Origin: Reticulascus tulasneorum
Taxonomy: Eukaryota; Ascomycota; Sordariomycetes; Glomerellales; Reticulascaceae
DNA length: 64,000 nt
Assembly (NCBI GenBank): GCA_001557505.1
Contig: LSAX01000003.1
Span: 4,650,001-4,714,000, forward strand
Direction of reading: 5' to 3'
Part shown: one piece after another, positions 6,113 to 43,125 of the stretch
Layout: each line of letters starts with the position of its first letter
Numbering within the stretch: the first letter of the stretch is position 1
The notes under the pieces: model-generated
Databases searched by the model: none
Seen by the model: only the letters and a program-made list of their open reading frames with translations
What the model was told of the DNA's origin: nothing
Translations under genes and position numbers: made by a program

Positions 6113-9100
6113 TCAGAAAGTGGGTGCAATCTTTGTCTCCGTGTGGTTGTTGACCAACTCCCTTAGCTTGAACGACCTTAACGTAGTCGTCGACGCCCGT
6201 GTCCGGTTCGGGACAGTCAATGAAGCCACGCTCGGCTGTGAAGGCCGCCTGGCTCGCATCTTATCGGTCGTCATTTCCGGCGATAATGGCGCGACTGCGT
6301 TACGAGACCTAAGGTTGAGCCTGCTCACCATCGACTGGATCGTCTTGCTCGAGTCCAGCGGCGGTGACAAGACCGGGGAAGGAGGTAGATGCCCGCCGTA
6401 TCCCGACGTACTGGCACCGTCTGAGGCACTGGTGCCGCGACGGTTCAGATGGGCACGGGGCATGGATTCCTCTGTTATAGAAGGGCCGCGGGAATGGGCC
6501 ATGTTATGCATGTGCAGCCCGTTAGCCGAGAGAGCACCAGACCGTGATGGCGAACGGCTCGATCCGCGACTCGATGGCGGTGTGGTGATACCGTGAGACG
6601 GGAACATCGGCTGCCTTGCCTTGGTTATTTGCTCAAAGTTGAGTGGCATCGGCGGCATCTTGCTTAGTCTCCGCATCGCGCGCATATTCTTGTCGATGAA
6701 TGACGACATGCGATGCAGCGCCGTGCTGTTCTCGTGTGATTCGGACGCTGACGTGCCGTTGACTGGTGGCTGTATTCTTGCTTGGTGCCGTTCATTGAGC
6801 TTCATCGGTTGCGTGTTGACTGGTGGCCATTGCGGCGCATCGCGGATGGTTTGCTGGACAGTCGAGAGGACGCGGTCAAACTCGACGGTATTCTGCGCTG
6901 GTTTGTATGACTGCGCGGCTCCCATGACAGTGCTCTGTGTAAGGATGAAGAACGATCCATCATTAATCCGACGACGCACAAGGTTCCAACGCGTCCTGGC
7001 TGGGTTGCGTTCGATTTCTGGCTGGTAGATGGAGTGCTGTGCAAGATTGGAGTAGAACACCTCGAGTCTCTTCGCCATGCGCTCAAGAATTTGCATCAAG
7101 AACGAGCAGAGAGCCATGACGCGCTGGTTGTCTGAGGAAGTATCCAGGTTCATGACCGTGTCGAACGCATCCATGCCATGGCAAGCTTCCTCGCGGATAT
7201 CTTCCAGGAGCTCGATGTCAAGCTGAACCGACTTGTTCGCATAGTCCATGATGCCACGTTCCTGGAATCGAGCTGGTTCGCTATCGCAAATGAACTGTCC
7301 AATTAAAGATACTTCCTTCGAGGTTGTCACCGCGTCGCTCGAAGTCTTTGCTCGCGCGATTATGCCCAGAATGTCGGGAAGCTTCGTGTCCGATCCAACA
7401 GAGGCAACGTTCGCCATTGTGAAGGAGAGCTTGAGAACCAACTCTTGGAACTTGGGCCCGAATAGAGCAGAGAATCCGGATTGCAAGAGCCGAGATTGAT
7501 ATTGGTAGAAGATGCGCACGCCGAGCATGTTGATGAGGCTGCCCTGGAACCAGAGCTTGGATGAACCGAGGATATCATCCATCTCAAACTGTTGGGCGAC
7601 AAGTGTCTCGACCGTGGTCCTCAAATAGTCGGACCAGATGTCATACAGATTGCTGAGTTCTTCGCTATCATGGTATTCCGGCTTCGGAGTCAGGTGGCCG
7701 ACAAAGTACTTGGTCAGCAAGCTGGCAACCTCCGGGTTGTTTGTATGCGCGAGATTGTCGAACGATTTCGTGCAGTCCACGCCAGCGTTGGACCTGATGA
7801 TGAGCGTGCCTCCGGGGTGCATTGGTGCGAAGTCTGTGACGTCGTATGCACTCCCGTGGACCCCTATCCACATCCTGCTACCGGGTCGATGGCCAGTGTG
7901 GACAGCAAGCTGTGACCAGGGAATGGTGGGAAGATTGCAGGGCAGGGGCTTTGGTGTCATGAAGACATCAAGCATGATTCGGCGCTCTGCAAAGGCTTGG
8001 TTAATAATCAGGTCTGTGGATTCCATGGTTGCGGTACGATGGTTGTAGATGGCCTTCCGAAGCCCGTTCATCACGGAGTCGAAGACCGCAACGGAGCCGC
8101 AAATGAAAAGATACCCTCCGAGCCCACCTTGCTTCTTCGACATGACCATGTCGCAAACGGTGGCTCCCTGCTCGACAATGAGCGCATCAATGTATCGAGG
8201 TTCCATTCGCCGCTCGACCAGGTCTCTCATAGTGCCGTCATAGACCAGCCCGCGAGAGTCTCGCGAGAAGGCAAGGTGGACCTCCATGGCGCCAGCATTG
8301 ATGTAATGGCGCAGCTCGTCTTCGTAGCAGAATTTCTCTCGGTTTTGGACACCAAGATAGAGGATGTTGCGGCCCACAGATCGCCCAACTCGAGATTGCC
8401 AGAAGCTCCTAAATGGAGCGATACCGCTTCCACCAGCGAAAAAGGCACACGGCGCAGCTCCATCTAGCGGCAGCTGGAAGGCGACGGGTCGGGAGACTCC
8501 GATCAGTATCCCGTCATCTGATGCGATGAAATCGTCTGGTGATCCAACCAACGGATTGAGGAAGCCGCTGCTGACGCCGGATCGGGAAATGTCTGATTTT
8601 CCTGCGAATGTCGCACATAGCTTGTACTCCGAGCGCGAGATCGTCAGGTCTACGCTGGATGGCAGAAGTTCTTCAGGGTAGTTGGAGATAGAGTACGTTC
8701 GCGGAACTTCGACAGGAATAAGATCGCTCAGCCACGGAATGTCGCCCGAAAGATCAAAGGCGCGATCCCAGATGTGCGTTGGCGTATCCATCACGGCAGC
8801 CTGCAACAAGTCGCCGAGAGAGCCGCGAACTGGCCATTCTTCTGTTGCCAGGACTTGTAGTACGGTGTTGGAAGACGCACGAAGCATGGCATGAATCTTG
8901 ATGGCCAGCTCTTGTGTAAGTGGTGCAAGATGACCCCGCCGAAGGATGTCTTTGACTGTAAGCAGATTTGGGTGGCCCCGAGGGCTTGCTCCGCCGTGGT
9001 TTGAGACTGAATTCAAATGCTCCGCAAAGCGAGACCATTTGCGATCCAGTAGCACGGGGGTGTCGAGCATGTGCTCCAAACCAAGGGCGGCAGCAATCTT

Positions 9101-11101
9101 CGCACACTCCTCCCAGCTGTTCAAGGGCATTACAGCCAGTCTGTCCCCAGGCTGGAACGTTATACCCGTGTCATGTAAATCCAAGGTCACCATCGCAATT
9201 GACCGCTGACTGTCCGAGTCCACGAACGATCGAGCAAGGACACTCGACATATATCTGCACTCCTCGAAGGTGCCACGCATCTCGTGGGGCTCGACGGGAA
9301 TGTTTCCACGATAAGGTTCCAATCGTTCCTTCATCGCATCTGAGAACTGCCGATGAACTACCTCCCAAGGCCGGCCAGAGTCGTCGCCACCCCCTGAGTT
9401 TCCATTGGTTTCTGTGCGGCCTGTCTTGGATGCAACCTCGAGAATTCCGAACACCTTGTATCGGTGTGTGCCCATGAACCCACGCTCCCCAGTATATGCT
9501 TCGATGATCCCGTCCAAAACGCCCATTAGCCTGCGGTCGCCAGATTCCTTCACAAATTCCGGAATCCGATAATGATATTCCACTGCGGCGATAAATGCGC
9601 GCAGGTTGGATGGCAACCACGCACGAAGATGAAGGCCTTCGTTTCCGAGGAAAGAATCATATCTCTTTCGGCCCAGAAACGCGTCCATCAGCAGGTAAGG
9701 AGGGAATTGGAGACCAGAAGCTGCTGGGCATCGTTTAGATAATGGGGCGGAGAATTTGCCCCATCGGACCCACTCGGTGGCCGAGACGTAGTTGTCACCA
9801 GAGTTAGGATTCGTAGAGATGGAATGGAATGCATTTGGCATTCGTTCCAAGACCTCTTTAAGTCTGATCATCTCCCGAAGAAGTCCCTCGACATTTCTGT
9901 TCATGACGTGCTCTTGGCAGGCAGCAATTGCATCTGGGCCATGCTGGAAAGATGCTATCAAAGTTCAAGCTGTTAGTTTCCAGCAAAAGAAAAGGAGGGC
10001 AGCACGGCCAACTAATACGGCAAGCTGGCAAGATTACAAAAGAAAGACCATGACTAACCTGAAGTGTCGGCACATCCTTTCAAAAATGCAATCTCTGTAC
10101 GCTCCCCGAACATGGGCCATCGCAAGTCTGTGTTGTCGAATCGTCCGACGTAAGGATATGTAGAGGTGGGATCCCGAACTCTGATATTGTAGGAAGCTTG
10201 GTCGAAGAATGTTAGATGCGGAATAGCCCTCCCCATCCGCCGGGAGATCTGCCAGTACGGAAGACCAATACTTCGCGGGATACCAATAAGTTCTGGGCCA
10301 AGATCGTCACTCATTTCAACTCGAGGTTTTGTTGAAACGGAGTTCATGATCACTCCATCGTAGCCGTCATTCTTGTCTTCGTATCGGTAGATCGAGCACA
10401 GCATGCCCAAAGCAACGATTGCTGCCCATAAAGCTTGATCGGGGATAGCATCTTCTGTGCCTTCGACAATCGGCAACGCGGCGACGGACTCTCTGACTCG
10501 TCCTCTGGATACACAACCTGGCATCCTCTCGCAGAGGTCGGACCAAATACGGCCTGGACAATTGGCGAGCGCGCCAGCTGATTCATTGGAGTCTGGAGGA
10601 CAGAATCCATATTCGGCACTAAGGTAACCATCCTTCCACCCCGTCCGAGACCCAATCCCTTCCGCTCGGAGAATGACTTGTCGCGCAGGTGCCCCCAAGG
10701 CGATGGCGAGGAGGTCGCGATCATCTGCTACTAGGGTATCGACATTTTTGACCTGCTTGATATAGTCTGCTGAAGGGATGTCCGAGTACATGACCTCATT
10801 GATCGCTTTCCGCTCCCTGTAATCACTGCTTAGTAGTTTAAACGTGGAGGTAGAAGCAATATATTACCTATCACGGAGCCATTCATCGACATCAACACCC
10901 CGCGGGATCTATAGGGCCATTAGTATAGATGTGTGGTTCAGTGAGTATGCCACGTACATCAAAGGCAGAGTGTAGATCCCCTGACTGAGTGAATCCAGAG
11001 AATGAACATCCTCGCGGGCCAACCCTCCGGTTCGCAGAGGTACCACTCGCAGGGCATCTTCCGGCGAGTGAGCCGGACACAGGACAGGATCTTTCAGACA
11101 T
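6113..11101 (-). CDS. IDO-like heme domain / FAD-NADP reductase / cytochrome b5 fusion protein
   Basis: The proposed exons are 10958-11101 (start uncertain), 10868-10908, 10059-10816 and 6113-9954, for about 1594 residues. Residues about 60-500 resemble indoleamine 2,3-dioxygenase: LGIPRSIGLPYWQISRRMG early on, then GFMGTHRYKVFG, whose His (about 9465) is the likely proximal heme ligand, and SKTGRTETNG after it. Residues about 540-930 form a ferredoxin-NADP-reductase module, with PRTYSISNYPEE (about 8690) for FAD and FFAGGSGIAPFRSFW (about 8420) for NADP. No FMN-binding flavodoxin domain is visible. Residues about 990-1075 are cytochrome b5, with MHPGG and DNLAHTNNPE supplying the two axial His. 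A conserved-looking helical region follows to about 1380, then a Ser/Arg-rich disordered tail. The expected role is electron transfer from NADPH through FAD and b5 heme to the oxygenase heme. The substrate is unknown. The start could instead be the ATG at 10791. Confidence 0.7.
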
Positions 11102-27349: not shown

Positions 27350-28554
27350 ATGGACGGAACGGCCTCAAGCCTGCCCACCGTGGGTGATGAGCAGCAGCTT
27401 CTGAAGCAACAGCCTCCTCTCCTCACCCGCCTCCAGTACGCCAGCACCATTGGCGCATTGCAAACTTTCTACAAGCAAGGAGTCTGGTTCAATGGCTGGA
27501 AAGACTACTTCTACCCGCCTAGTCAGCGGCCAGATCTCGTCAAGAAATATGACTCGCGTGCTCATTTACCTGTCCGGTAAGTGATATCAGAAATGCGACG
27601 GCAGAAACCCCCCGCTGACAGTTCTTGGTACTAAACAGCATCTTTTTCCCCTCCTCCTATGACCAGACTTCTCCGCAGTCGCTACCGACACTGTTTACAA
27701 TCCATGGAGGGGGCTTCTGTTTGGGCATACCGGAGGATGACGATATCTGGAACCGGTCTTTCGCCGATTTGCACAATGTCCTGGTTGTGGCGCTGAACTA
27801 CTCCAAAGCACCGTGGTCTTCGTGGCCGGGTCCGCTCCACGACGTTGAAGCGCTCTTCCTGTCCGTTCTTGAAGACGAGTCACTGCCCATCGATGAATCG
27901 AAGACGGCCCTCGGCGGCTTCAGCGCCGGAGGCAACCTTGCTTTGGCGCTCTCCCAGCTCCCCTCAGTACATGGTCATCCTACGGCTGCGCCCAAGGCGG
28001 TTGTACCCATATACGCACCGCTTGACTTCTCCATCGCAGCGGAGACGAAACGGCAGCGTAGACCTTACAAGAAGGGAAAGTTGAGTGGCATACGAGGCGA
28101 AGAGAAGGACTACATCTTGCCGTTGGCTGAGGTCTTCGACTGGGCATACATCCCCTACGGCGAAAACCTGCGAAATCCGCTCATATGCCCCTTCTTCTCC
28201 AAGAAGGAAGACCTCCCGCCACACGTATTCTTCATCGCTGCAGAACTTGACTTCCTATCCTGGGAATCATTGGCACTGGCCTCCAGACTTGCAGGACGGG
28301 AGGTCAGCGGTACCAGGGCGGGGAGGCAAGATGCGGCGACTACGCAGGAGTTGGAGCTGGGGGATGAGAGATTTAGTTGGGAAGCGAATAGAGTCAAGTG
28401 GTTGCTGGTGCCGGATGTGATTCACGCTTTTGACCTGCATCCTCTGGGCAAGATGGTGAGTGACCCCGAGACTGCGAGGGATGGGGATGCAAAAGGAATT
28501 AAGGTGGTGAAGGTGCTAGGCGATTGGCTCTTGGAGACTGTGTGGAAGGCATAA
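27350..28554 (+). CDS. Alpha/beta hydrolase, HSL/arylacetamide-deacetylase-like esterase
   Basis: The model is two exons, 27350-27576 and 27639-28554, 380 residues, joined by a 62 nt intron (GTAAGT...ACAG). The oxyanion motif is FTIHGGGF, the nucleophile elbow is GGFSAGGN (Ser), the acid is likely Asp in AAELDFLSWE, and the catalytic His is in VIHAFDLHP. This HGGG plus GxSxG layout defines the hormone-sensitive-lipase family of carboxylesterases. Substrates are usually short acyl esters and cannot be read from the sequence. A basic insertion (KRQRRPYKKGK) follows the Ser strand. Before the His there is a charged insertion of about 30 residues that is probably a loop. The start has a fair context. 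An upstream membrane exon is possible. Confidence 0.85.
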
Positions 28555-31532: not shown

Positions 31533-34500
31533 ATGGCCGACTTGGAGCATCGGAGAGTAACCCTTCCACGAATCGACACCACCATGCCGTCGATACCTGG
31601 ACCGTCTGTCGAAGACCGACTACTGTCGGCCGTCGCCAACGTGCTGGCTCTTCCAAGAAATAGCATCGAACTCTTTGATTCGTTTACTGACCTGGGTGGA
31701 GACAGAGCCACAGCTCTGACATTGAGGAGAGCCTGTATGAGCTACGGGCTCGGTGTAAAGACAAGCGATATCCTGCGATGCCAGACATTGGCAGAGCTAC
31801 AGACTTGCGTGACGCCTTTTGACCAGCTCACTCCCATCTCTAACAGATCGGATGAGCGGTCGGAATCGCCATCAGATGTCTTCAGCGAGGGCACTAAACG
31901 GAGCAGCGACTCTGATTCTTGCGGCGGATCGGTCGACTCGGAGGAATCACAGGCGAGAATGGAGCGAGAAGCAACAGAAAAGTTCCTCGTTGGGACATCG
32001 AAAGTGTCAGCCGCTGCGCTGATTCGGCCAATGGCGGGATACTTGGAAGGGAAACTCGTCGCTTTCATCACCATGGCCAACTCAACTGCAGCCCAGTCCA
32101 TTCTTTCTAGCATCAGACTCATCCCGCAGACACAGATTCACTTTGCGGGAAGTCAAGTCGCCGCCCTCCGACTAGCTCTAGAGAGCTCGTCAGGGTCTTT
32201 CCTGATACCAAACACCTGGATCGTCCTTGAGCACTTGTCGACAGATGACGCAGGGCATGTCGACAGGCGGAGGCTGCAGACGTGGGTGCAGAACCTAAAC
32301 GAGGACCAGTACCAGCAAATCACAAGTCTCGAGTCTGACGAATTATTTCAAGAACCTTTGACAGACACCGAACGATCGCTCCAAAAGATTGTCAGCCGAG
32401 TACTGAGAGTGCCGCAAAGGCAGGTCGGCATGAACTTTTCCTTCAGCCAGCTGGGCGGTGACGACATCTCGGCCATGCTGCTCGTATCCGCCTGCAGAAC
32501 CGAGTCCATTCTTCTCAAGCCGGAGGACGTCCACCAGAGCACATCGCTTGGTCAGCTTGCGCTGCTAGCCACCTGGAAGGGAACACTCGGCAAAAGGTGG
32601 AACGAGGAATCGCTGGACGGGTTCAGGCTGTCTCCAATGCAGCAGATGTACTTCGACACGGCGATGGGTGGCAACCTCGAGGAAAGGATGCAGTCCGATG
32701 GCAGCTATAGATTCAACCAAAGTATATTGCTTCGGATTCGCAACAGCGCCACCTTGGAGGATGTTCATGCAGCCATTGAAACCGTGGTTGGCCATCACTC
32801 AATGCTTCGAGCACGGTTCAGACTAGGAGCTGAAGGCTGGACCCAAAGAATACTAGCAGACTCAAAAGCGTCATATGGATTTGGTTACCACAGCGTCAGC
32901 ACCAATGAAGAAGTTATGGTTGTTATTGAACGGTCACAAGCTAGCATCGATATCGAGAATGGTCCGGTCTTCGCGGTCGAGCATTTCAATACTTGTGACG
33001 GGCAGCAGATGGTATATATCATTGCGCATCATCTTGTCGTTGACCTGCTTTCCTGGCGGATCATCATCCATGACTTGGACGAGCTGCTTCAAGAGGGCAC
33101 TCTATTCTCTGAACGGTCGATGCCCTTCCAGCGCTGGAACGAACTCTCAGAACAGGAAATCAATCATGAAGAGATGCCCGAAGCATTACCGTTTCAGGTG
33201 TCGGGAGGTGATTACAGCTACTGGGGCCTGGAGAACTCGCTCAATACCTACGGCGAAGCTCTTGAGGCCAGCTTTTCATTGAGCTCCGAGCTGACGGCAA
33301 TCCTACACAAAACATGTAATCAAGTATTCCGAACGGACTCAGCAGACATCTATCTGGCTGCTCTTCTCCTTTCTTTCTGCCAAACATTCCATGATCGTCG
33401 AGCTCCGGTCATATGGAACCAGGAGCACGGCCGTGAGCCTTGGTCTCAAGACATCGACATTACTGAGACGGTTGGCTGGTTCAATTCTCTTTGCCCTATT
33501 GGGCTTGGGGCAGATATGGCCGAAGACTTTCTGCACATACTTCGGAAAATGAAGGACATTCGAAGGTCGATAGCACGCCACGGATGGAGCTACTTTGCCT
33601 CACGCTACCTTGGATCCCGGGCTACACAACTCTCAGCTGAGGGCTGGCCATTCGAGATCCTGTTCACCTACGCTGGCTCGGTGCAGCAACTAGAGCGCGA
33701 GAACGGAGTTCTAGAGCAGCTCGCCATTCCCGGACGAACGCTGACGTCAACAACATCTGACATTGGACCTAATGTGGGCAGGATTGCCTTGTTCGAAGTC
33801 TCTGCCACAGTCGACCAGGGAGCAGCCAAGATTAAGTTCCTCTACAACCGGAACTCGAAGCATCAAGATCGCATCCGCGATTGGATACAGTGCTACGAGC
33901 ATCTTCTACTTGAAGCAATTGGTAGGCTGAGATACCGAGCCCAGGAACTTACCCTCGCCGACGTCCCGCTTTTGAAAACCAGCTACGAGGGTCTGGCAAA
34001 GCTTAATACCGACCGACTCGTCGCGCTCAACCTCTCCAGCGCGAGAGATATCGAGGATGTCTATCCGGTTACCGCCACACAACAAGAGATTCTTATCAGC
34101 CAGACTCAATCGCTTGATAGTTGCCACATCCATACCATCTACGAGCTTGCATCGTCCAGTGCGGTGCTTGCCGACCAGGCCCAGATCTGTGTTGCTTGGC
34201 AGCAGACTGTGGCTAAATATCCGGCTCTGAGAACTGTTTTCATTGATAGCATCTCAGAAGATGGTCTATTTGACCAGGTTGTGCTACGCAAGTGCTCGCC
34301 TGATATGCTTTTCATCGATGCTGGTACGGGCGATGATCCGATCGTTGCCCTTAACACCCTCCCGCCGTTGAAACCTTCTCCCGCAGAGCCCCGACATAGG
34401 CTTTCCGTATGCAAAGCTTCGAGAAGCACGTTCTTGAAGCTGGAGATCAGTCAGGCGCTCTGCGATACCTTAAGCGTGCAGAACGTGATGGCTGACCTGA

Positions 34501-37500
34501 AAAGAATATACAACTCCAGCAAAGCTCCTATGAAAGTTATCGATCCGTCTTATACTGCCTGTGTTCAGTATCTTGGGGCTGCACGACTCAATAATAGCCT
34601 TGAATTCTGGCGTACCCAGCTTCAAGACACCCAACCTTGCCTGTTTCCTCGGCTTACTGCGACAGAAGACACCCGACTTCATCGGACCGAGTATGAGCTC
34701 GACATCGGAGCTTTGCAGCTTGATGAGTTTTGCCGCACTCAATCCATCAGCCGAGCAACGGTCATGCAACTCGCCTGGGGCCTCGTCCTTCGTGCCTTTA
34801 CTGGCACGAGCCGAGTGTGCTTTGGATATCTGACTTCTGGCCGAGAAGGGCCAGCCTCCCCAAATGGGCTGCAACAGTCAGTGGGATGCTTCCAAAGTAC
34901 AATTGCTTGTGCTCTCCAGCTGTCGGCATACAAGCCTCTCGCTGCTATCCTGCGGACAACGGAAGATAACCTTGTCGCCTCTTTGCAACACCAGCATGTT
35001 TGTTCTTCTGAAGTTCAGCATGCGTTAGGTCTCCGAGGAGAAAAGCTGTTCAATACATGTCTCACCTTCCAGGAAGATCCACCAGAGCTGAAAAGTCGAT
35101 TCAGCAATGCCCGACCTCAAATGGCATTGTCCTGTGTCCAGGCATTCAATACCCTTGACTACGATATCACTTTCTCGACGATGTTTGTCAATGGACAGCT
35201 CGTGGCGGGCATCTCGCATCGCATCTTGACGACCTCTCAAGCGCAAAACATTGCAAACACTTTTAGCCGCGCTGTCCAGTCACTTCTTGAAAGCCCTAAT
35301 GGATCTCTGGGTGGGATCGACCTCTTCACGGATCGCGATTATGCGCAATTGCTGATCCATGATTGGGAGGTTGAAAATACTAGCGAAACCCCGGAGGCAT
35401 GCATCCACAATCTGATCTCAATGGAAGCGAAGAAGCAACCCGAGGCTCCGGCTGTGTGTGCTTGGGATGGAGACTTCACTTACCGACAGCTTGCACGTCT
35501 TGTTTCGCGATTGGCGCGCTATCTCGTTGATTTAGGTGTCAAGCCAGGTGTAATTGTTCCTGTGGTGCTCGAGAAGAGTCGGTGGGCTGTTGTTGCCATG
35601 GTGGCGGTGATGAAGGCCGGGGGCTGCTTTTTGCCTATCGATGGTGAGGACAAAGGTCCCGTCGAGGCTACGATCAGACAACTTAACCCCAAGGTTGTTC
35701 TTACTACCGATATGGCTTGGAAGAGTCTGGAGTCTGTCACCGAGAGCGTCATCATCGTCAACGATGCCTTGTTCTCGGCAATCCTCCCTTCTGAAACTTC
35801 ATCGCCAAAGATTTCGACCAGGGATCCTGCTTGTATTCTGTTCTCTCCTGGAGTGCCCCGATCCAAGGATGCTCGAGGCATTGTATTCTCTCACTCTGCC
35901 CTCTCATCTGCATTCCTGTCTCAGGGCCCAGCTTTCAAGATCGACTCGAGCAGCCGCGTCATGCAGCTATCTTCCTACAACGTCGATACTGCGCTCGTGG
36001 AGACACTGACTACACTTGTGCATGGCGGTTGTGTTTGCATTCCGTCTGCAGAAGAGAGAATTCACGATTTTGCTGGTGCTGTCCGTCGTATGCAAGTTAC
36101 TTGGACTTATATGACTCCTGTTCTGGCCAGACGACTTAGTCCTGCTTGTGTGCCGAGTCTCAAGATTACTTGCTTCAGAACTCGCCGGTTAGACGAGGAC
36201 ACATGCAAGCCATGGATGGAGAAGACCAAGGTCCTTCTTGCCTACGGAGCCCCTGACATTTGCCCGCTCGGGATATCAATGATCGAGGTCACGAGAGGCA
36301 ATGATCTCAACCGGATTGCCCGCCCATTCCTCGGGAAGTTCTGGATTGTGAATCCAGAAGACCATCGCAAGCTCATGCCGATTGGCGCTATTGGCGAGCT
36401 CATCGTTGAGAGTCCGACCCTGGCTTACAAGTTCGTCCCTGGCCAGCCACTCCTGCCTATGGCCCCACAGTCAGACGTCCCTTCCGAAGATGGACGGCCG
36501 AAGATGCGATATTTCAAGTCGGGACACCGAGTACGTTATATGGAAGATGGCATGATGGAGTTTATTTCGAGTGCCCGTGATGATGTTTCAATTGACGGAA
36601 AGGTTGTTCCTGTTGCTGAGATTGAACAGCAACTACGAAGATGCCTTGGCCAGGGTGTGGACTTGGTTGTCGATGCGATTAAGGACAGAGACTCAGTCCA
36701 AACCTTGGCCGCTTTCGTCGAACTTGGTGACAAGCTATTCGATGGTATGCAGGATCTATCAAGATTGAGTACGACGACCAAGGAGCGCACTTTTATCGCA
36801 AAAAAGCTCGTCGAAACTTCTCTGAAGAACAACCTACCTGCCCACATGATCCCCACCATCTTTGTCCCCGTCAAGCACCTACCCATCACTCCATCACTCA
36901 AAATTAATCGACGCAAACTGCAAAAGATGGTTCGATGGCTATCCTATAATCAACTTATTGAGCTGTCATCAGTTCCTTGCCCCGATGAGATTCGAGCTGT
37001 TGGTCTCAAGCCTCTTCCTCTGACGCAAGTAGAGGAGCGCATGAGATCAATTTGGGCATCACTCCTCGACATTGCCGAAACAAACATCACTGGAAATCAG
37101 GGTTTCTTGAAACTTGGTGGCGGCAGATACCTTGCTGCCCAGCTAGTCGTCGCGTGCCGCAAGCATGGCCTCTCGATTTCGATTCAGGATATCCTCCGAA
37201 ATGCCTCGCTAACAGAGTTATGCCAGGGCATCACTCTGAGCTCTGAGTACATCTTCGAGGTGGCAGAGGGTCGCAACTCCACCCTATCGACTGCACCAAT
37301 CTCAGGAATGCTCGTTGAGGAAAAGTTCCTCCACGAAGTGATTGCACCGCAACTAGGCGTCGAGCGGGATGCCATCAAGGATGTTGCCGAAGCATCAGCT
37401 GCACAGATTAGATACCTGGAGACGGGAATGCTCAAAGGCCGAGCCAACGTCAGCTACCTGACGTTCAACTTCATTGGTCTAGTTCCGGCAAAGAGGTTGG

Positions 37501-39497
37501 AGTTGGCCCTTCAAGCTCTTGCAAAGATCCACCCGATCCTGCGCACCGCATTCGTCGCACATGATCGGCGACTATACCAAGCCGCCTTGCGATCCTTCAT
37601 TCCGGAGTTCAAGAGAATCCAGTGTCCGAGCTGGAGACTTAGTGGGTTGACAGAAAAGCTGATCAGGAAGGACCAGTTGAGTCCATTGACACTTTCAACA
37701 CCGATGACCAAGTTTATCTTCCTGGACTCTGGCAAGCAATCGACACTCGTCATTAGGCTAACGAAGGCGCAATATGACGATGCTTCGATCGCATTGCTGC
37801 TGCAGGATCTAAAACAAATCTTCAATGCCATGCAGAGTCCACCGCGAAGAGCTACCTACTTTGACTTCATGCGATCCGCCCAGCTTGCTCAGTCTCAAGG
37901 TGCTCTTGACTACTGGACCATCTTACTTGAGGGAGCAAGGATGACCCAGGTGGTGTCTCATGCAACGCCTCAGACACTGACCTCCACTGTCAAGACGATC
38001 CGACAAGAGATCCCCCTTACATCTCTGTCCAGCTTGGGCATCTCTTTTGACACTGTCCTCAAAGCGGCATGGGCGATGGTGCTTGCCAATCTTTCGGGTA
38101 GAGGGGATGTCATGTTTGGCGAAGTCATTGAGGGACGGCACACGCGCTTGTCGAATGGCTCGGGGATGTCTGGCGTCCTCGGACCTGCAGCGAATACGAT
38201 CCCTGTTCGTGTGAGATTCTCCGAAGTTGCTAGCACTCCCTTGGAACTACTGCAATATGTGCATGGACAACGTGTCATGGGCATCCCCTTCGAGAACCTG
38301 GGATGGATTGAGATTGTCGAGAAGTGTACTAAGCTGCCATACTGGACACAGCTCAGCACGGCGGTACAGCATAGGTACCACGACAACTTTCATTTCACAG
38401 AGCAGTCGACATTCAATCTCGGCTCGGCCACTTGCAAGTTTAGCATTCAGGAATCGGCTCACCAGGATGTATATGATCTCTTCGTTAGCTCAACTCAGCT
38501 GTTGACGGAAAGGGCTGAGATTGCGCTCACATTCTGCGAGAATCGTATCCCAACGACATTCGCCGACGAAACTCTCAAGCTGTTGTGCTCCACCATCGAG
38601 CTGTTGACATCTGTCTCTATGATGCACCCGATTATCCCATCAGCCGCGGAGTATGCGAACACAGTTCCCCAAATCCCTCTGCCACAACCAGAAGTCGAGC
38701 AGCAAGCAACCCAACTGGGCTTCCTTATGTCTACAGACCACCGCTTCGCAGTGCAGGCTCTTATCTCTGCAGCTTGGACACAGATCCTTGACCCTCGCAC
38801 ACTGGGTGTTCCAGAGCTTCACATCCACAATGCGGCGTTCTACGATCTTTGGGGCAGCTTGATCCCTGCTGCTCAACTAGCGAAGTACCTGACCCAAGAG
38901 CTGCCCAAGCTGGGTATCTCGGGTCTAGAGGATATGTCCATAACAATGGAAGACATTGTTTCGCATCCGACGATGCTGGCACAGTTCGAGCTTGTGGCTC
39001 GCAAGTTACGAGATCGAAATGAACCCAGGCGAAGGACGGTCGGCTTCTCACCTCGTTCTCCCACAGCCTGGGGACGTAGTATTCGACGTCTAACGTCCAC
39101 AGTTGTTCGCGAGACCATTGGTCACGAAAGAACAAACAGCAATGGCAGCATAGTGGATACGCCCCCCTTCGTTCAGCCAGGACTTGCGCCACCGGCAGAG
39201 CCAATTAACCAAGGCGCACCAATCAACCCTCCAATCTTCGAAGCAGAGGCCCCCAGCCATCGAATAAGGCCGGCTATGTCTTTGATACTAGAAACAGATG
39301 ATAGAGGCAGTATGGAGTCGATGACAAGCGGTAGTACAAGAAGTGATGAGGAGGAAGATATTGTTAGCCCCCTGAGCCCAATTGGGAAGGCTGGGCATAT
39401 GGAAACTGGCACCGGCAATGCATTGAGAAGGAAGGCGAGTAGCATGTTTGGAAAGATGGGGCTCGTGAGCCCCGTTAGTGTTGCAAGCCCGACATAG
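31533..39497 (+). CDS. NRPS-like pseudoenzyme (T*-T*-E-C*-A*-T*-C*-T*)
   Basis: This is one uninterrupted frame of 2654 residues, started at an ATG in good context (TTCAACATGGCC). Four carrier-like domains are present, but the phosphopantetheine Ser of LGGDS is replaced: LGGDR (Arg58), LGGDD (Asp311), LGGGR (Arg1865) and DLWGSL (Leu2443). The first large domain is epimerase-type with HHLVVDLLSW intact (His499-500) and TVGWFNSLCP. The next condensation-like domain has SQALCDT for HxxxDG (Gln974). The last has TKAQYDD (Lys2078). The adenylation-like domain has LFSPGVPRSKDARG for TSGSTGxPKG, YGAPD for YGPTE, SGH for TGD (His1665) and PSLKINRRKL around Lys1790. A tail of about 170 residues is rich in Ser, Arg and Pro. 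The architecture is therefore NRPS-derived, but peptide synthesis looks impossible. The missing stops and frameshifts argue for a retained, non-catalytic role, which is unknown. Confidence 0.88.
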   Translation: MADLEHRRVTLPRIDTTMPSIPGPSVEDRLLSAVANVLALPRNSIELFDSFTDLGGDRATALTLRRACMSYGLGVKTSDILRCQTLAELQTCVTPFDQLTPISNRSDERSESPSDVFSEGTKRSSDSDSCGGSVDSEESQARMEREATEKFLVGTSKVSAAALIRPMAGYLEGKLVAFITMANSTAAQSILSSIRLIPQTQIHFAGSQVAALRLALESSSGSFLIPNTWIVLEHLSTDDAGHVDRRRLQTWVQNLNEDQYQQITSLESDELFQEPLTDTERSLQKIVSRVLRVPQRQVGMNFSFSQLGGDDISAMLLVSACRTESILLKPEDVHQSTSLGQLALLATWKGTLGKRWNEESLDGFRLSPMQQMYFDTAMGGNLEERMQSDGSYRFNQSILLRIRNSATLEDVHAAIETVVGHHSMLRARFRLGAEGWTQRILADSKASYGFGYHSVSTNEEVMVVIERSQASIDIENGPVFAVEHFNTCDGQQMVYIIAHHLVVDLLSWRIIIHDLDELLQEGTLFSERSMPFQRWNELSEQEINHEEMPEALPFQVSGGDYSYWGLENSLNTYGEALEASFSLSSELTAILHKTCNQVFRTDSADIYLAALLLSFCQTFHDRRAPVIWNQEHGREPWSQDIDITETVGWFNSLCPIGLGADMAEDFLHILRKMKDIRRSIARHGWSYFASRYLGSRATQLSAEGWPFEILFTYAGSVQQLERENGVLEQLAIPGRTLTSTTSDIGPNVGRIALFEVSATVDQGAAKIKFLYNRNSKHQDRIRDWIQCYEHLLLEAIGRLRYRAQELTLADVPLLKTSYEGLAKLNTDRLVALNLSSARDIEDVYPVTATQQEILISQTQSLDSCHIHTIYELASSSAVLADQAQICVAWQQTVAKYPALRTVFIDSISEDGLFDQVVLRKCSPDMLFIDAGTGDDPIVALNTLPPLKPSPAEPRHRLSVCKASRSTFLKLEISQALCDTLSVQNVMADLKRIYNSSKAPMKVIDPSYTACVQYLGAARLNNSLEFWRTQLQDTQPCLFPRLTATEDTRLHRTEYELDIGALQLDEFCRTQSISRATVMQLAWGLVLRAFTGTSRVCFGYLTSGREGPASPNGLQQSVGCFQSTIACALQLSAYKPLAAILRTTEDNLVASLQHQHVCSSEVQHALGLRGEKLFNTCLTFQEDPPELKSRFSNARPQMALSCVQAFNTLDYDITFSTMFVNGQLVAGISHRILTTSQAQNIANTFSRAVQSLLESPNGSLGGIDLFTDRDYAQLLIHDWEVENTSETPEACIHNLISMEAKKQPEAPAVCAWDGDFTYRQLARLVSRLARYLVDLGVKPGVIVPVVLEKSRWAVVAMVAVMKAGGCFLPIDGEDKGPVEATIRQLNPKVVLTTDMAWKSLESVTESVIIVNDALFSAILPSETSSPKISTRDPACILFSPGVPRSKDARGIVFSHSALSSAFLSQGPAFKIDSSSRVMQLSSYNVDTALVETLTTLVHGGCVCIPSAEERIHDFAGAVRRMQVTWTYMTPVLARRLSPACVPSLKITCFRTRRLDEDTCKPWMEKTKVLLAYGAPDICPLGISMIEVTRGNDLNRIARPFLGKFWIVNPEDHRKLMPIGAIGELIVESPTLAYKFVPGQPLLPMAPQSDVPSEDGRPKMRYFKSGHRVRYMEDGMMEFISSARDDVSIDGKVVPVAEIEQQLRRCLGQGVDLVVDAIKDRDSVQTLAAFVELGDKLFDGMQDLSRLSTTTKERTFIAKKLVETSLKNNLPAHMIPTIFVPVKHLPITPSLKINRRKLQKMVRWLSYNQLIELSSVPCPDEIRAVGLKPLPLTQVEERMRSIWASLLDIAETNITGNQGFLKLGGGRYLAAQLVVACRKHGLSISIQDILRNASLTELCQGITLSSEYIFEVAEGRNSTLSTAPISGMLVEEKFLHEVIAPQLGVERDAIKDVAEASAAQIRYLETGMLKGRANVSYLTFNFIGLVPAKRLELALQALAKIHPILRTAFVAHDRRLYQAALRSFIPEFKRIQCPSWRLSGLTEKLIRKDQLSPLTLSTPMTKFIFLDSGKQSTLVIRLTKAQYDDASIALLLQDLKQIFNAMQSPPRRATYFDFMRSAQLAQSQGALDYWTILLEGARMTQVVSHATPQTLTSTVKTIRQEIPLTSLSSLGISFDTVLKAAWAMVLANLSGRGDVMFGEVIEGRHTRLSNGSGMSGVLGPAANTIPVRVRFSEVASTPLELLQYVHGQRVMGIPFENLGWIEIVEKCTKLPYWTQLSTAVQHRYHDNFHFTEQSTFNLGSATCKFSIQESAHQDVYDLFVSSTQLLTERAEIALTFCENRIPTTFADETLKLLCSTIELLTSVSMMHPIIPSAAEYANTVPQIPLPQPEVEQQATQLGFLMSTDHRFAVQALISAAWTQILDPRTLGVPELHIHNAAFYDLWGSLIPAAQLAKYLTQELPKLGISGLEDMSITMEDIVSHPTMLAQFELVARKLRDRNEPRRRTVGFSPRSPTAWGRSIRRLTSTVVRETIGHERTNSNGSIVDTPPFVQPGLAPPAEPINQGAPINPPIFEAEAPSHRIRPAMSLILETDDRGSMESMTSGSTRSDEEEDIVSPLSPIGKAGHMETGTGNALRRKASSMFGKMGLVSPVSVASPT

Positions 39498-41614
39498 CTT
39501 GCTCCATGTAAATGTATAATGATGGTTAGGCTGCACGGCGTTCGGATTGGATGCCTCGTTTGTGGGCTCTCCTTTGTACAATGAAGATATACCAAAAATC
39601 AGATAGAGAGTAGGCGCCATGTACAGATGAATTCAACAATTCAATCAAACAATCGCGTCAAAGTTGCCATGACACACCGCATTTAAGCAGATCAAGGGTG
39701 ACGACGCATTTCAACCCTCACCAAGTCACTCTTTAACGGGGCATTGGAGATTGGGTTATACTAGGAACGGAGTTTGTTAGTAGACTCTGGTTCGATTTAT
39801 GTTTACTCAATCACAGTGTAAAGGCAGAATCAATCAAATTCGCTACCGAAGAACCCGGCACTACTAAGTTGTACGATTCACGGAACGTATCAGAATGTCA
39901 TGAGCCCGGAGAGAATGCAGAATAAAAGCAGCAGTTCGCATCAAAAGGGCCAATAGGAATATTGCGCGAAATGAGTCGATTCTGATTGCATTGCACGCTC
40001 ATAGAACGCCCTCATCTACATTGGATCTGTCCTATTCGACCGGACTCCCAGGCCACATGGACTACTCGTAGTGCATCGTCCACGTGCTTAGTTGGCAAAC
40101 CGTGGTCACCGCCAACAGGTGTCCATAGAATCCTTCCCGCCCTCCAACCAGGTTCCGACCGCCTGACTCGTACACATCGGCGACGACGATGCTGTGCCCG
40201 CGACCGGGAATGGCGAGTGTTACTTCGCGTCCTGGCGAGGAAGAGACGCTACAAGTCATGTTATTCCAGAAAGCAAGTGTCGGAGCACTTAAGAGGGCCC
40301 ATTGTCCCCCTGGCTCATGAGCGGAAGTGTTCACGAGTTCGAGAAAGTGGTACCAACCCCGACAACAATGCTTCCACCGAAGGAGTAGGCTGTGAGGCGG
40401 AGCACCTTCCGTCCTTTCCGAGGTAGAACCGAAAAGCGAGAACCAGGAGTATCTGTGTTGGGGGTACTCGCATGTCGGAAGAGAGATCACTACGCCCTCG
40501 GTGTGTCCACGGCATCCGCGGCTCCGCGGCCAAACATGTTCTGGATGATACCTTAGATGAATATCAAGTCACCCCTATGATGGCCTATGCGAGTCTGGCA
40601 GTTTTGAATATGCACATACGTGTAGCATAACTGTATGCCCCCCGACACAAGGGCATGAGCCAGATTGGCCAATGTTTGCGTGGTGTGTTTCCTGGGTTAG
40701 GAGAACCTTTTGACCGTCTTCAGGGCCTCATTCATAGACCCGATAATACCATACTGTACACAGAGGTTTTAGAAAAGCTATGTCGAGAGCATAAGAGAAT
40801 TGGAGTACGCCAAGTGGAGTCCGAAGATGCCGGGCTCCCAGGAACCGTGTCAGGTTGTATCCGGGGGTTATCTGACTGGGGACTGAATGCTCTCCTATCT
40901 GGAGGAGGCTATTTATGACTGCTCAAGGCCGATTGGCAACTCCATGCTCATTTGGGCGAAATCAAAAAACTTCCGTAGTGGGAATTGCTACTTTCTATTG
41001 AATGAGTTTAATCGTGGACACTGGCTAACAACTTGCGATGGCTGCTTAGAACTAGCGTTTCTTCCAGAACGGACGATCTGTCTAACCTCTTACTGCATTC
41101 CTGCATTGCCATCCTATCAGGCGACGCACGCCGTACAAAGAACATTCATTCGTACAATTTTGACACCGCAATGTCATTTTTCGTTCGCAATGCGTATTAG
41201 CGCTTCACTACACTGTACACGTCTTACATCCGAAGCTCAGCAACATTGCTTCTGCACCTCCACTTCTTGCAATCCACATAAAGCCTCCCTTCCTTCGTCT
41301 GCATCTGGATCTCGTTGTGGGAGGAAACCGACCCACATGTGTTCGTTCTGAGTCCAATTACAAACGGTGAGGTCATCAGATATGCGCTAATGAAATTCAC
41401 TACGTCGGATATACGCGTATCGCTCTCTTGAAATTCAATCAAGTGCAATGGCAATGACGATCAGCAGCAGTGCCAAAAGCTGATGCCAGTTTTCCTGATT
41501 CCGTGGCCGTCTTCTACGGTTCAACGCCTTTTAATAACAGTCCCATAGCCTCTAGTGGATGGTACAGCTAAGAAATTCCATGTTATCTTTCAGACTTTCT
41601 CATTGCAACTCATC
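39498..41614. other. Intergenic, no supported gene
   Basis: Frames at 39986-40490 (both strands) and 40655-40918 have no start, splice or domain support. Decayed gene remnants cannot be excluded. Confidence 0.45.
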
Positions 41615-43125
41615 ATGTCGAGTATTGAAGCCAGTGCTGATTTTCGGGTGCCTCACCCAACTGGCGCTTCCGAGGATCAGATAGCATCTGATGCGCCATG
41701 GCTCCTTGGCCTTCTCACTGCCCTCCCGGATCTTCTCATCTACACCCAGTCGTCCAAATCCTACGAAGATGTCCGATTGATGAAAAGTCTCGAGGCCTCG
41801 GGGCGGCCCCGTGCTATTGTCCGTCCCCGTATAGACAGTGAAGTGTCTGCGATCCTGAAGGCAGTTCAAGCAGAGAAAATCCCCTTTGGAGTCCGATGCG
41901 GAGGCCATGATTATTTCCCAGTCCAACCTCAAGAAACTGATATTGTAATCGACTTGCGCGGCTTGGATGAGATGAAACTTGCTGCAAACAAGCAATCGGC
42001 ATCGATAGGAGGAGGCGTCTTCTCCCAAGAGTTTCAGAGGTTCCTCGCTCCACAAAAGCTCGTCGCCGCGTTCGGGTGGTGTCCGACTGTTGGATACACA
42101 GGATGGGCACTTGGGGGCGGATACGGGGTCGCCAGTTCCTTCTACGGCCTAGGGGTGGACCAAATCCTCGGTGCCCGTGTTGTGCTTGCAGACGGCCAAA
42201 TTGTCGACTCGGACAATCACCCTGATCTACTCTGGGCTTTGCGGGGTGCTGGGAACGGGAATTTTGGAATCGTTGTAGAGCTTCGTGTTAAGGTATATCC
42301 ACAGACGGGATTCCTTGGAGGCTTTCTTGTGTTTCCATTTGACCAGGCAGAGTCTGTTCTTACAGCCTATGGAAAGCTCGAGCATTCTTTACCTCCAAAT
42401 TATGCTGGGGAAATTATGGTTATGACAACGCCTGGCATCGGTCCAACTGTAACATTCTTCTTTACTTGGATATCGGAAGATGACAAGGTCGATAAGGGCT
42501 TTGAGTTCTTGCAAACCTTAAAGAGCCTGGGCAACCCAATCGTTGATACCACCTCAGAAGGTATGGTGTGCCTCGTGTTGACTTGATTCTTCATTTCTAA
42601 CCGTAATCAGGAAGCATTTATACGTTCTTGGAGTCACTCCCTGTGTTCCCACCTCTTCATTGGTACATTCGCCAAAGGACTATCGAGTACTTCTCGCCTG
42701 CAGCATCCAAGGTCATGGTCAACCAGCTTCCCGCCACCTCGACCTGTGCCTGCGTCATCCACAGCAGCCATGGTCGTGCCATGCAACAAAATCCAGCCGC
42801 GTGTTTCTCCGTTCGGAAACAACATCGAGTCATGGTAATTGGTTGTTCAGTCACGGATTTGTCTGCTGAGGCCCATGATTACACTAGTGGTAAGGCATGG
42901 TCTGATATGCTGGCCGATGCATTGACGAAAGGCGGCGTGTCGATTCCGGAAGGGAACCGAAACCTAGGTCCAGATCGGGACATGAACTGGGTGGCAACCT
43001 TTGGCCGAGAAACCTTGACTAAGCTGAAAGAGATCAAGGACAAGTATGATCCAGAGAATCTGTTTAAAAGGGGCTACCCGCCTTTGGCGGATTCATCTGT
43101 GTGGGAAGCAGGGTCGCCTAAGTAA
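41615..43125 (+). CDS. Berberine-bridge-like FAD-linked oxidoreductase (bicovalent FAD type)
   Basis: The model is two exons, 41615-42560 and 42611-43125, 486 residues, with a 50 nt intron (GTATGG...TCAG). The PP-loop FAD-binding domain contains RCGGHDYF, whose His is the usual 8-alpha attachment site, and GWCPTVGYTGWALGGGYG, whose Cys is the usual second covalent site. LLWALRGAGNGNFGIV follows, and the C-terminus carries the BBE motif KYDPENLF. Enzymes of this family oxidise carbohydrates, alkaloids or secondary-metabolite intermediates with O2, giving H2O2. No secretion signal is obvious, which favours a cytosolic or biosynthetic role over a secreted carbohydrate oxidase. It lies 2.1 kb downstream of the pseudo-NRPS in the same orientation, so a shared pathway is possible but unproven. 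Confidence 0.9.

Follow-up and report, generated by a model that had tools for sequence, protein, structure and literature searches.

A 64,000-nucleotide stretch of the genome of Reticulascus tulasneorum (assembly GCA_001557505.1, contig LSAX01000003.1, positions 4,650,001 to 4,714,000 of the forward strand; hereafter the window) contains a gene that, as judged from its sequence, is a nonribosomal peptide synthetase (NRPS) by descent and fold and is not a working enzyme. The encoded protein is very probably catalytically dead and kept by selection. The best explanation overall, which we consider likely, is that the gene belongs to an ancient Sordariomycetes family whose ancestor was a working NRPS with the domain order T-A-T-E-C-A-T-C(terminal)-T, where T, A, E, and C stand for carrier, adenylation, epimerization, and condensation domains, and that its product would be a full-length pseudoenzyme acting by binding.

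An uninterrupted NRPS-derived gene

Translation of positions 31533-39497 gave 2654 residues with zero internal stops, in agreement with the preliminary description of this DNA, which had reported all 7965 bp as open. Given the triplet composition of the window, the probability of a stop-free run of 2654 codons arising by chance is about 10^-39, and the remaining five frames over the same interval contain 71 to 143 stops apiece; this value and the family-wide retention of the gene ruled out a chance open frame. The ATG is backed by many relatives that start with M..LPRIDT. A mis-annotated orphan open reading frame (ORF) was likewise dismissed on the basis of 60-64% identity across 98-100% of the length with Colletotrichum proteins and one further protein. 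The protein has sequence homology to the C, A, T, and E domains of NRPSs, and a Pfam scan revealed three condensation-type, one adenylation, and three carrier domains (PF00550 cut-off, 20.8 bits). The domain order is T1, linker, A1 remnant, T2, E, C1, A, T3, C2, T4, and tail, with the following coordinates:

31533..39497, + strand: whole gene, uninterrupted ORF of 2654 residues, putative NRPS-derived pseudoenzyme
31533..31604, + strand: N-terminal tail with an LPRIDT motif
31605..31817, + strand: T1 carrier domain, Ser site occupied by Arg58 (31704-31706); PF00550, 28.9 bits
31818..31982, + strand: Ser-rich acidic linker replacing the A1 core; mean identity of 0.20 among relatives, the lowest of all segments
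31983..32318, + strand: A1 remnant, C-terminal subdomain only; family profile against A-domain C-subdomains of active NRPSs, best E 1.5e-25
32358..32567, + strand: T2 carrier domain, Ser site occupied by Asp311 (32463-32465); PF00550, 32.8 bits; structure model m2572522762b2
32625..33992, + strand: epimerization-type domain, HHxxxD kept, catalytic Glu replaced by Gln630 (33420-33422); fold as in 9bfg and 5isw
34038..35357, + strand: condensation domain C1, catalytic His replaced by Gln974 (34452-34454); PF00668
35394..36932, + strand: dead adenylation domain, A3 lost, A7 Asp replaced by His1665 (36525-36527), A8 lost
37020..37232, + strand: T3 carrier domain, Ser site occupied by Arg1865 (37125-37127); PF00550, 30.4 bits
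37410..38672, + strand: condensation domain C2, fungal terminal type, catalytic His replaced by Lys2078 (37764-37766); sequence match to the TqaA terminal condensation domain
38715..39032, + strand: T4 carrier-like domain with DLWGSLIPA, Ser site occupied by Leu2443 (38859-38861); related to the terminal domain of P0295, 28 bits
39033..39494, + strand: low-conservation C-terminal tail with ESMTSGS (39315-39335), VSPLSP, and RRKASS

Alignment placed Arg58, Asp311, Arg1865, and Leu2443 at the carrier sites, just as the preliminary description had claimed for four replaced serines. The damage is wider than the carriers, since the catalytic Glu of the E domain (Gln630, identified by alignment of NQEHGRE with the EGHGRE of PvdL), the His of both C domains, and the A motifs A3, A7, and A8 are also gone. 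Because these catalytic residues are lost, and in view of known NRPS chemistry, the window protein would be unable to activate an amino acid by adenylation, to carry a thioester, or to catalyse epimerization or condensation.

A Sordariomycetes family with shared catalytic losses

Three protein searches, which took proteins of 0.55-1.75 times the query length and thereby undercounted broken copies, provided 303 proteins from the best 120 matches of each, including that of the window; all family counts given here cover the matches listed. They fell into 258 family members (window's included) and 45 active relatives; in the latter, taken as a group, the GGDS carriers are intact and the E, C, and A domains retain their catalytic columns. 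At least 2200 residues were found in 242 of the 258 members, and 16 were shorter. Recognised members came from Glomerellales, Microascales, Hypocreales, Sordariales, Magnaporthales, Diaporthales, Coniochaetales, Xylariales, and Amphisphaeriales (one example per recognised order was checked), that is, from all three subclasses of Sordariomycetes. No member from outside this class was recognised among the matches listed, in which orthologues from other classes may be missed. The orthologue search and the alignment of carrier motifs, both suggested in the preliminary description, therefore revealed a family across Sordariomycetes that shows the same losses and is mostly full length.

In each of the four domain trees (E, A, C1, and C2), built with FastTree from 67 representatives, or 66 for C2, the family forms one clade, with local support of 0.998-1.0. 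The nearest active sister varies by domain, being P0190 for E (parent support 0.833) and P0186 for A (0.84), with support below 0.5 for C1 and C2. In an E tree of 45 representatives, read by eye, the groups track species groups, and Xylariomycetidae branch first. Fusarium graminearum NRPS3 (FGSG_10523, P0140) lies inside the family by search, alignment, and E tree.

The catalytic Glu of the E domain was present in none of 244 members, so that a surviving epimerase, considered because HHxxxD is kept in the window protein, was ruled out; His500 of that motif is present in 206/244 and replaced in 38/244. The C2 His was found in 0/255 members and the C1 His in 13/237 (missing in 224/237). All 13 members with His at site 974 are Colletotrichum, close kin of the window species, where the residue may be either a regain or a chance change. 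Canonical A3 occurred in 0/258 members and the A7 Asp in 3/257 (absent in 254/257), and A8 columns were lost in the comparison with active relatives. When the E Glu, C1 His, A7 Asp, and C2 His were considered jointly, with a gap counted as not replaced, all four were replaced in 218/242 members, three in 23, and two in one. Furthermore, no usable carrier serine was present in 219 of the 242 members of at least 2200 residues. This holds for 158/158 such members outside Xylariomycetidae and for 61/84 within this subclass, in which 22 members retain the T2 Ser and one retains those of T2 and T3. Ser without a carrier motif occupies the site in 5/229 members at T1 and, outside Xylariomycetidae, in 2/157 at T3. 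In four Diaporthales members, P0082 (3493 residues), P0099, P0112, and P0115, the T1 region has no LGGD motif.

The losses are selective. Among columns conserved in active relatives, E lost one of 60, namely the catalytic Glu, and C2 lost one of 22, namely the catalytic His; an earlier run with 63 representatives gave losses of 1/55 for E, 1/25 for C2, 3/27 for C1, and 20/88 for A. For T4, to which a single active copy matched, this analysis was uninformative. Of the structure predictions that the preliminary description had suggested for the carrier domains, modelling covered A and T2-E, and both folds were predicted to be intact. The VIA-align list covers model residues 1-516, so T3 is barely covered, and the absence of a family from this list is uninformative. 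That description had read the gene as an NRPS turned non-catalytic, and "dead and kept" stands up well in view of the shared losses, the hits on catalytic columns, and the large-scale retention of the others, whereas the specific roles it proposed (scaffold, sensor, partner, or decoy) are candidates.

The T4 and A1 regions

The carrier label is weakest for T4, since it is the only one of the four domains with no Pfam match, a scan of T4 alone having returned zero matches. Its strongest support comes from a homologous Ser-less C-terminal domain in the otherwise intact-looking Xylogone NRPS P0295. In that protein, a carrier-like end domain of the T4 type (residues 4018-4083; FYNVWGKLIAAAQ) follows three GGDS carriers and is a possible trace of the ancestor. 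As P0295 looks intact, loss of the T4 serine may have preceded the death of the other domains. The preliminary description had cautioned that a one-residue shift might place Ser2442 at the T4 site; this was not borne out, because a gap-free alignment places Leu there and Ser occupies the site in 0/252 family members with a letter. The preceding residue (Ser2442 in the window protein) is Ser in 180/252 members and Ala, Cys, or Thr in 72/252. For the A1 remnant, too, a separate Pfam scan gave zero matches; the matches of its family profile in active NRPSs fall shortly before a carrier.

A conserved pocket in the dead A domain and motifs in the tails

In working A domains, Asp235 holds the amino group of the substrate, and Lys517 is the carboxylate anchor. 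We use what we take to be the PheA code numbers (235, 278, 299-301, 330, 331, 413, and 517) with the residue roles presumed for them, the positions having been set by alignment with active relatives. Both residues are kept in the dead A domain of the window protein, as Asp1485 (position 235; 35985-35987) and Lys1790 (position 517; 36900-36902), while Cys1547, Phe1548, and Arg1549 correspond to positions 299, 300, and 301. Asp235 is present in 257/257 family members compared with 76/90 active copies. Other pocket residues are nearly fixed, i.e. Tyr278 (252/255), Cys299 (255/257), Phe300 (253/257), Arg301 (254/257), Pro330 (248/257), and Leu331 (252/257). The ten specificity-code positions have an average conservation of 0.85 compared with 0.58 for the A domain, a value matched by 6 of 20,000 random ten-column sets, and A3 and A8 lie under the domain average (0.46 and 0.45). 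Near-invariant pocket residues beside drifted A3 and A8 motifs fit a pocket in which a ligand, conceivably an amino acid, may still be bound but is no longer activated.

The tails share short motifs that would rarely arise by chance. P[RKS][ILV]D[TAS] occurs in the first 100 residues of 102/242 family members (shuffled mean, 1.95), [ED]S[MLFI]TxGS in 79/242 C-terminal tails (0.05), and VSPL-type motifs in 81/242 (1.7); each of them is missing from over half of the members. The Diaporthales proteins P0082, P0099, P0112, and P0115 have 688-810 residues past alignment position 2450, compared with 205 in the window protein.

Proposed role and alternative explanations

Since the body is kept, the chemistry is gone, and the motifs sit in loose ends, the protein would best be read as a binding device, that is, a scaffold, a sensor, or both; what we propose beyond "dead and kept" is inferred. 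Selection would retain the folded scaffold and some tail motifs, the conserved new pocket of the dead A domain would accommodate a small ligand, for which an amino acid is the probable candidate, and the ligand state could be passed through the multidomain body to the short motifs in the loose tails. The outcome would be a scaffold that may double as a sensor. We are fairly confident that such a protein acts by binding rather than by novel chemistry. A plain protein scaffold has, in our estimation, a little less than an even chance of being correct, and a ligand-binding sensor is a more tentative proposal. A bolder version, which we regard as rather unlikely, is a class-wide ligand receptor: an amino acid, or a metabolite like it, would bind to the former A domain without being activated, and the open or closed megaprotein would show [ED]SMTxGS and VSPLSP to partners.

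Several observations weigh against a binding pseudoenzyme. At T2, no conserved column was lost by the measure used, and Ser still accounts for 0.14 among representatives; 23 family members, all Xylariomycetidae, retain Ser there. Parsimony gave eight changes with an undecided root, or 16 losses if regain is forbidden, leaving kept versus regained undecided. Intact carrier motifs in orthologues, part of what the preliminary description had named as evidence against its own reading, are thus partly represented, Ser being found at T2 in 23/73 Xylariomycetidae members (in one also at T3), but most of the remaining catalytic sites are dead in these proteins, and the T2 Ser therefore restores no enzyme. 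Lys517 occurs in 157/158 members outside Xylariomycetidae but only in 14/83 inside (182/256 in total), which weakens the case for a single amino-acid ligand family-wide. Code positions 236, 239, and 322 vary, and the pocket positions are partly buried, so that they may be conserved as core and not for a ligand. In the accessible excerpt of PMC3814326, F. graminearum NRPS3 is tabled as not expressed under the conditions studied. The excerpt of PMC9239088 reports 126 cluster-gene knockouts in Neurospora crassa, few with a phenotype; NCU04531, probably the orthologue of the window gene, is, if it was included, not named among those in that excerpt.

A decaying pseudogene with a frame left open by luck would account for the missing catalytic motifs, and the 16 members below 2200 residues may be fragments or broken copies. 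We nevertheless consider it highly improbable, because the same losses are common to all three subclasses, most of the members listed are full length (broken copies being undercounted), conserved columns without a catalytic role are mostly retained, and new residues have been fixed. A recent pseudogene was ruled out by the family-wide shared losses together with the selective column loss. We give as little credence to a working NRPS with unusual sites, e.g. Ser2442 as the T4 carrier serine. That residue is Ser in most members, but its replacement by Ala, Cys, or Thr in the rest and the missing A and C catalytic residues (canonical A3, nearly every A7 Asp, the C2 His throughout, and most C1 His) led us to reject this route.

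The remaining alternatives assign the dead protein another function. It could act as a partner or decoy for a working NRPS or regulate its dosage, docking the carriers or the phosphopantetheinyl transferase of another synthetase, which would agree with the predicted intact E and A folds and with the T2 Ser retained by 23 Xylariomycetidae. However, N. crassa, for which the excerpt of PMC9239088 tables three NRPS and three NRPS-like clusters with NCU04531 in one of the former, appears to have an orthologue although we take its two other NRPS clusters to be siderophore clusters; a decoy aimed at a synthetase that makes a product would be a poor fit for this fungus, and this alternative seems improbable to us. 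Somewhat more doubtful still is an enzyme with new chemistry in a rebuilt A or E pocket. Such an enzyme would explain why the new A-pocket residues Cys299, Phe300, Arg301, Pro330, and Leu331 are near-invariant, with Cys299, Arg301, and Asp235 nearly or fully fixed, and why E retains HHxxxD. On the other hand, no known catalytic arrangement was recognised, His500 is replaced in 38 members, and position 413 varies (211 His, 22 Arg, 19 Gln, 3 Asp, 1 Ser, and 1 Glu among 257). A binding pseudoenzyme remains the explanation that we prefer.

Genomic neighborhood

Thirty neighboring ORFs in the window were scanned with Pfam, of which 13 were matched and 17 unmatched. The matches comprised SAPS, reductase/cytochrome b5, IDO, G-patch/GCFC, alpha/beta hydrolase, FAD/BBE oxidase, GINS Psf3, and subtilase with its inhibitor domain, and one neighbor had an aspartyl-protease match slightly below the cut-off. 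Housekeeping neighbors are SAPS/Sit4-associated, G-patch/GCFC splicing-factor-like, and GINS Psf3 ORFs. No clear biosynthetic cluster was seen among the 30 scanned ORFs, 17 of them having no Pfam match. Three neighbors are located as follows:

27619-28554, + strand: alpha/beta hydrolase (Pfam), flanking the gene at a few kb
41549-43125, + strand: berberine-bridge-type FAD oxidase (Pfam), flanking the gene at a few kb
10054-10863, - strand: IDO-like ORF adjoining a 1283-residue ORF, both within 6113-10863

The 1283-residue ORF on the - strand carries P450-reductase-type FAD and NAD domains and a cytochrome b5 domain; together with the IDO-like ORF it possibly represents one fused or paired dioxygenase-reductase-b5 system.

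Significance and comparison with known systems

Pseudoenzymes are well known among kinases and proteases. A complete multidomain NRPS that has turned non-catalytic and is kept across a fungal class would represent a new use of the megasynthase scaffold and, if the ligand-receptor proposal were true, the first case known in which a complete NRPS has become a sensor of nutrients or metabolites. In genome surveys, this gene is counted among the NRPSs whose peptide awaits discovery. If the protein is dead, there will be no product to discover, and the number of NRPS products in these fungi is overestimated by such surveys. A large N. crassa gene-deletion set exists, according to the excerpt of PMC9239088, and the pseudoenzyme reading is therefore directly testable there.

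What is already known is the gene family, named in Fusarium; catalytic death throughout it was not found in the accessible parts of the literature retrieved, nor was a prior description of a dead NRPS family, the 2012 and 2015 Fusarium NRPS nomenclature papers lying outside this search. In the excerpts available, FGSG_10523 is tabled as NRPS 3 without a product (PMC3814326), NRPS3 is present in all ten studied genomes of the F. solani complex (PMC10455376), and the third NRPS of Verticillium dahliae sits on a long branch (PMC6502550). This VdNrps3, like NCU04531, is probably an orthologue of the window gene, as inferred from the short NRPS lists and from family members in Neurospora and Verticillium.

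Fusarium NRPS3 (FGSG_10523) shares family, clade, and layout with the window gene, but it and its orthologues are filed as NRPSs without known product, and catalytic death is not stated in those excerpts. Active fungal NRPSs such as P0072, P0193, and P0295 (Xylogone, a Leotiomycete) are related to the window protein in their T, E, C, and A domains, and P0295 even has the Ser-less T4-like end, whereas GGDS carriers and catalytic E, C, and A columns are kept in the 45 active relatives as a group. GrsA/TycA PheA and PCP-E (1amu, 5isw, 9bfg) are about 21-23% identical to the window protein, in which their catalytic residues are replaced. NPS6 siderophore synthetases offer a parallel in the degenerate A domain that, according to the excerpt of PMC2823734, is kept in all homologues; there, however, a single A domain is degenerate in a siderophore-making enzyme, whereas every catalytic domain is affected in the window protein.
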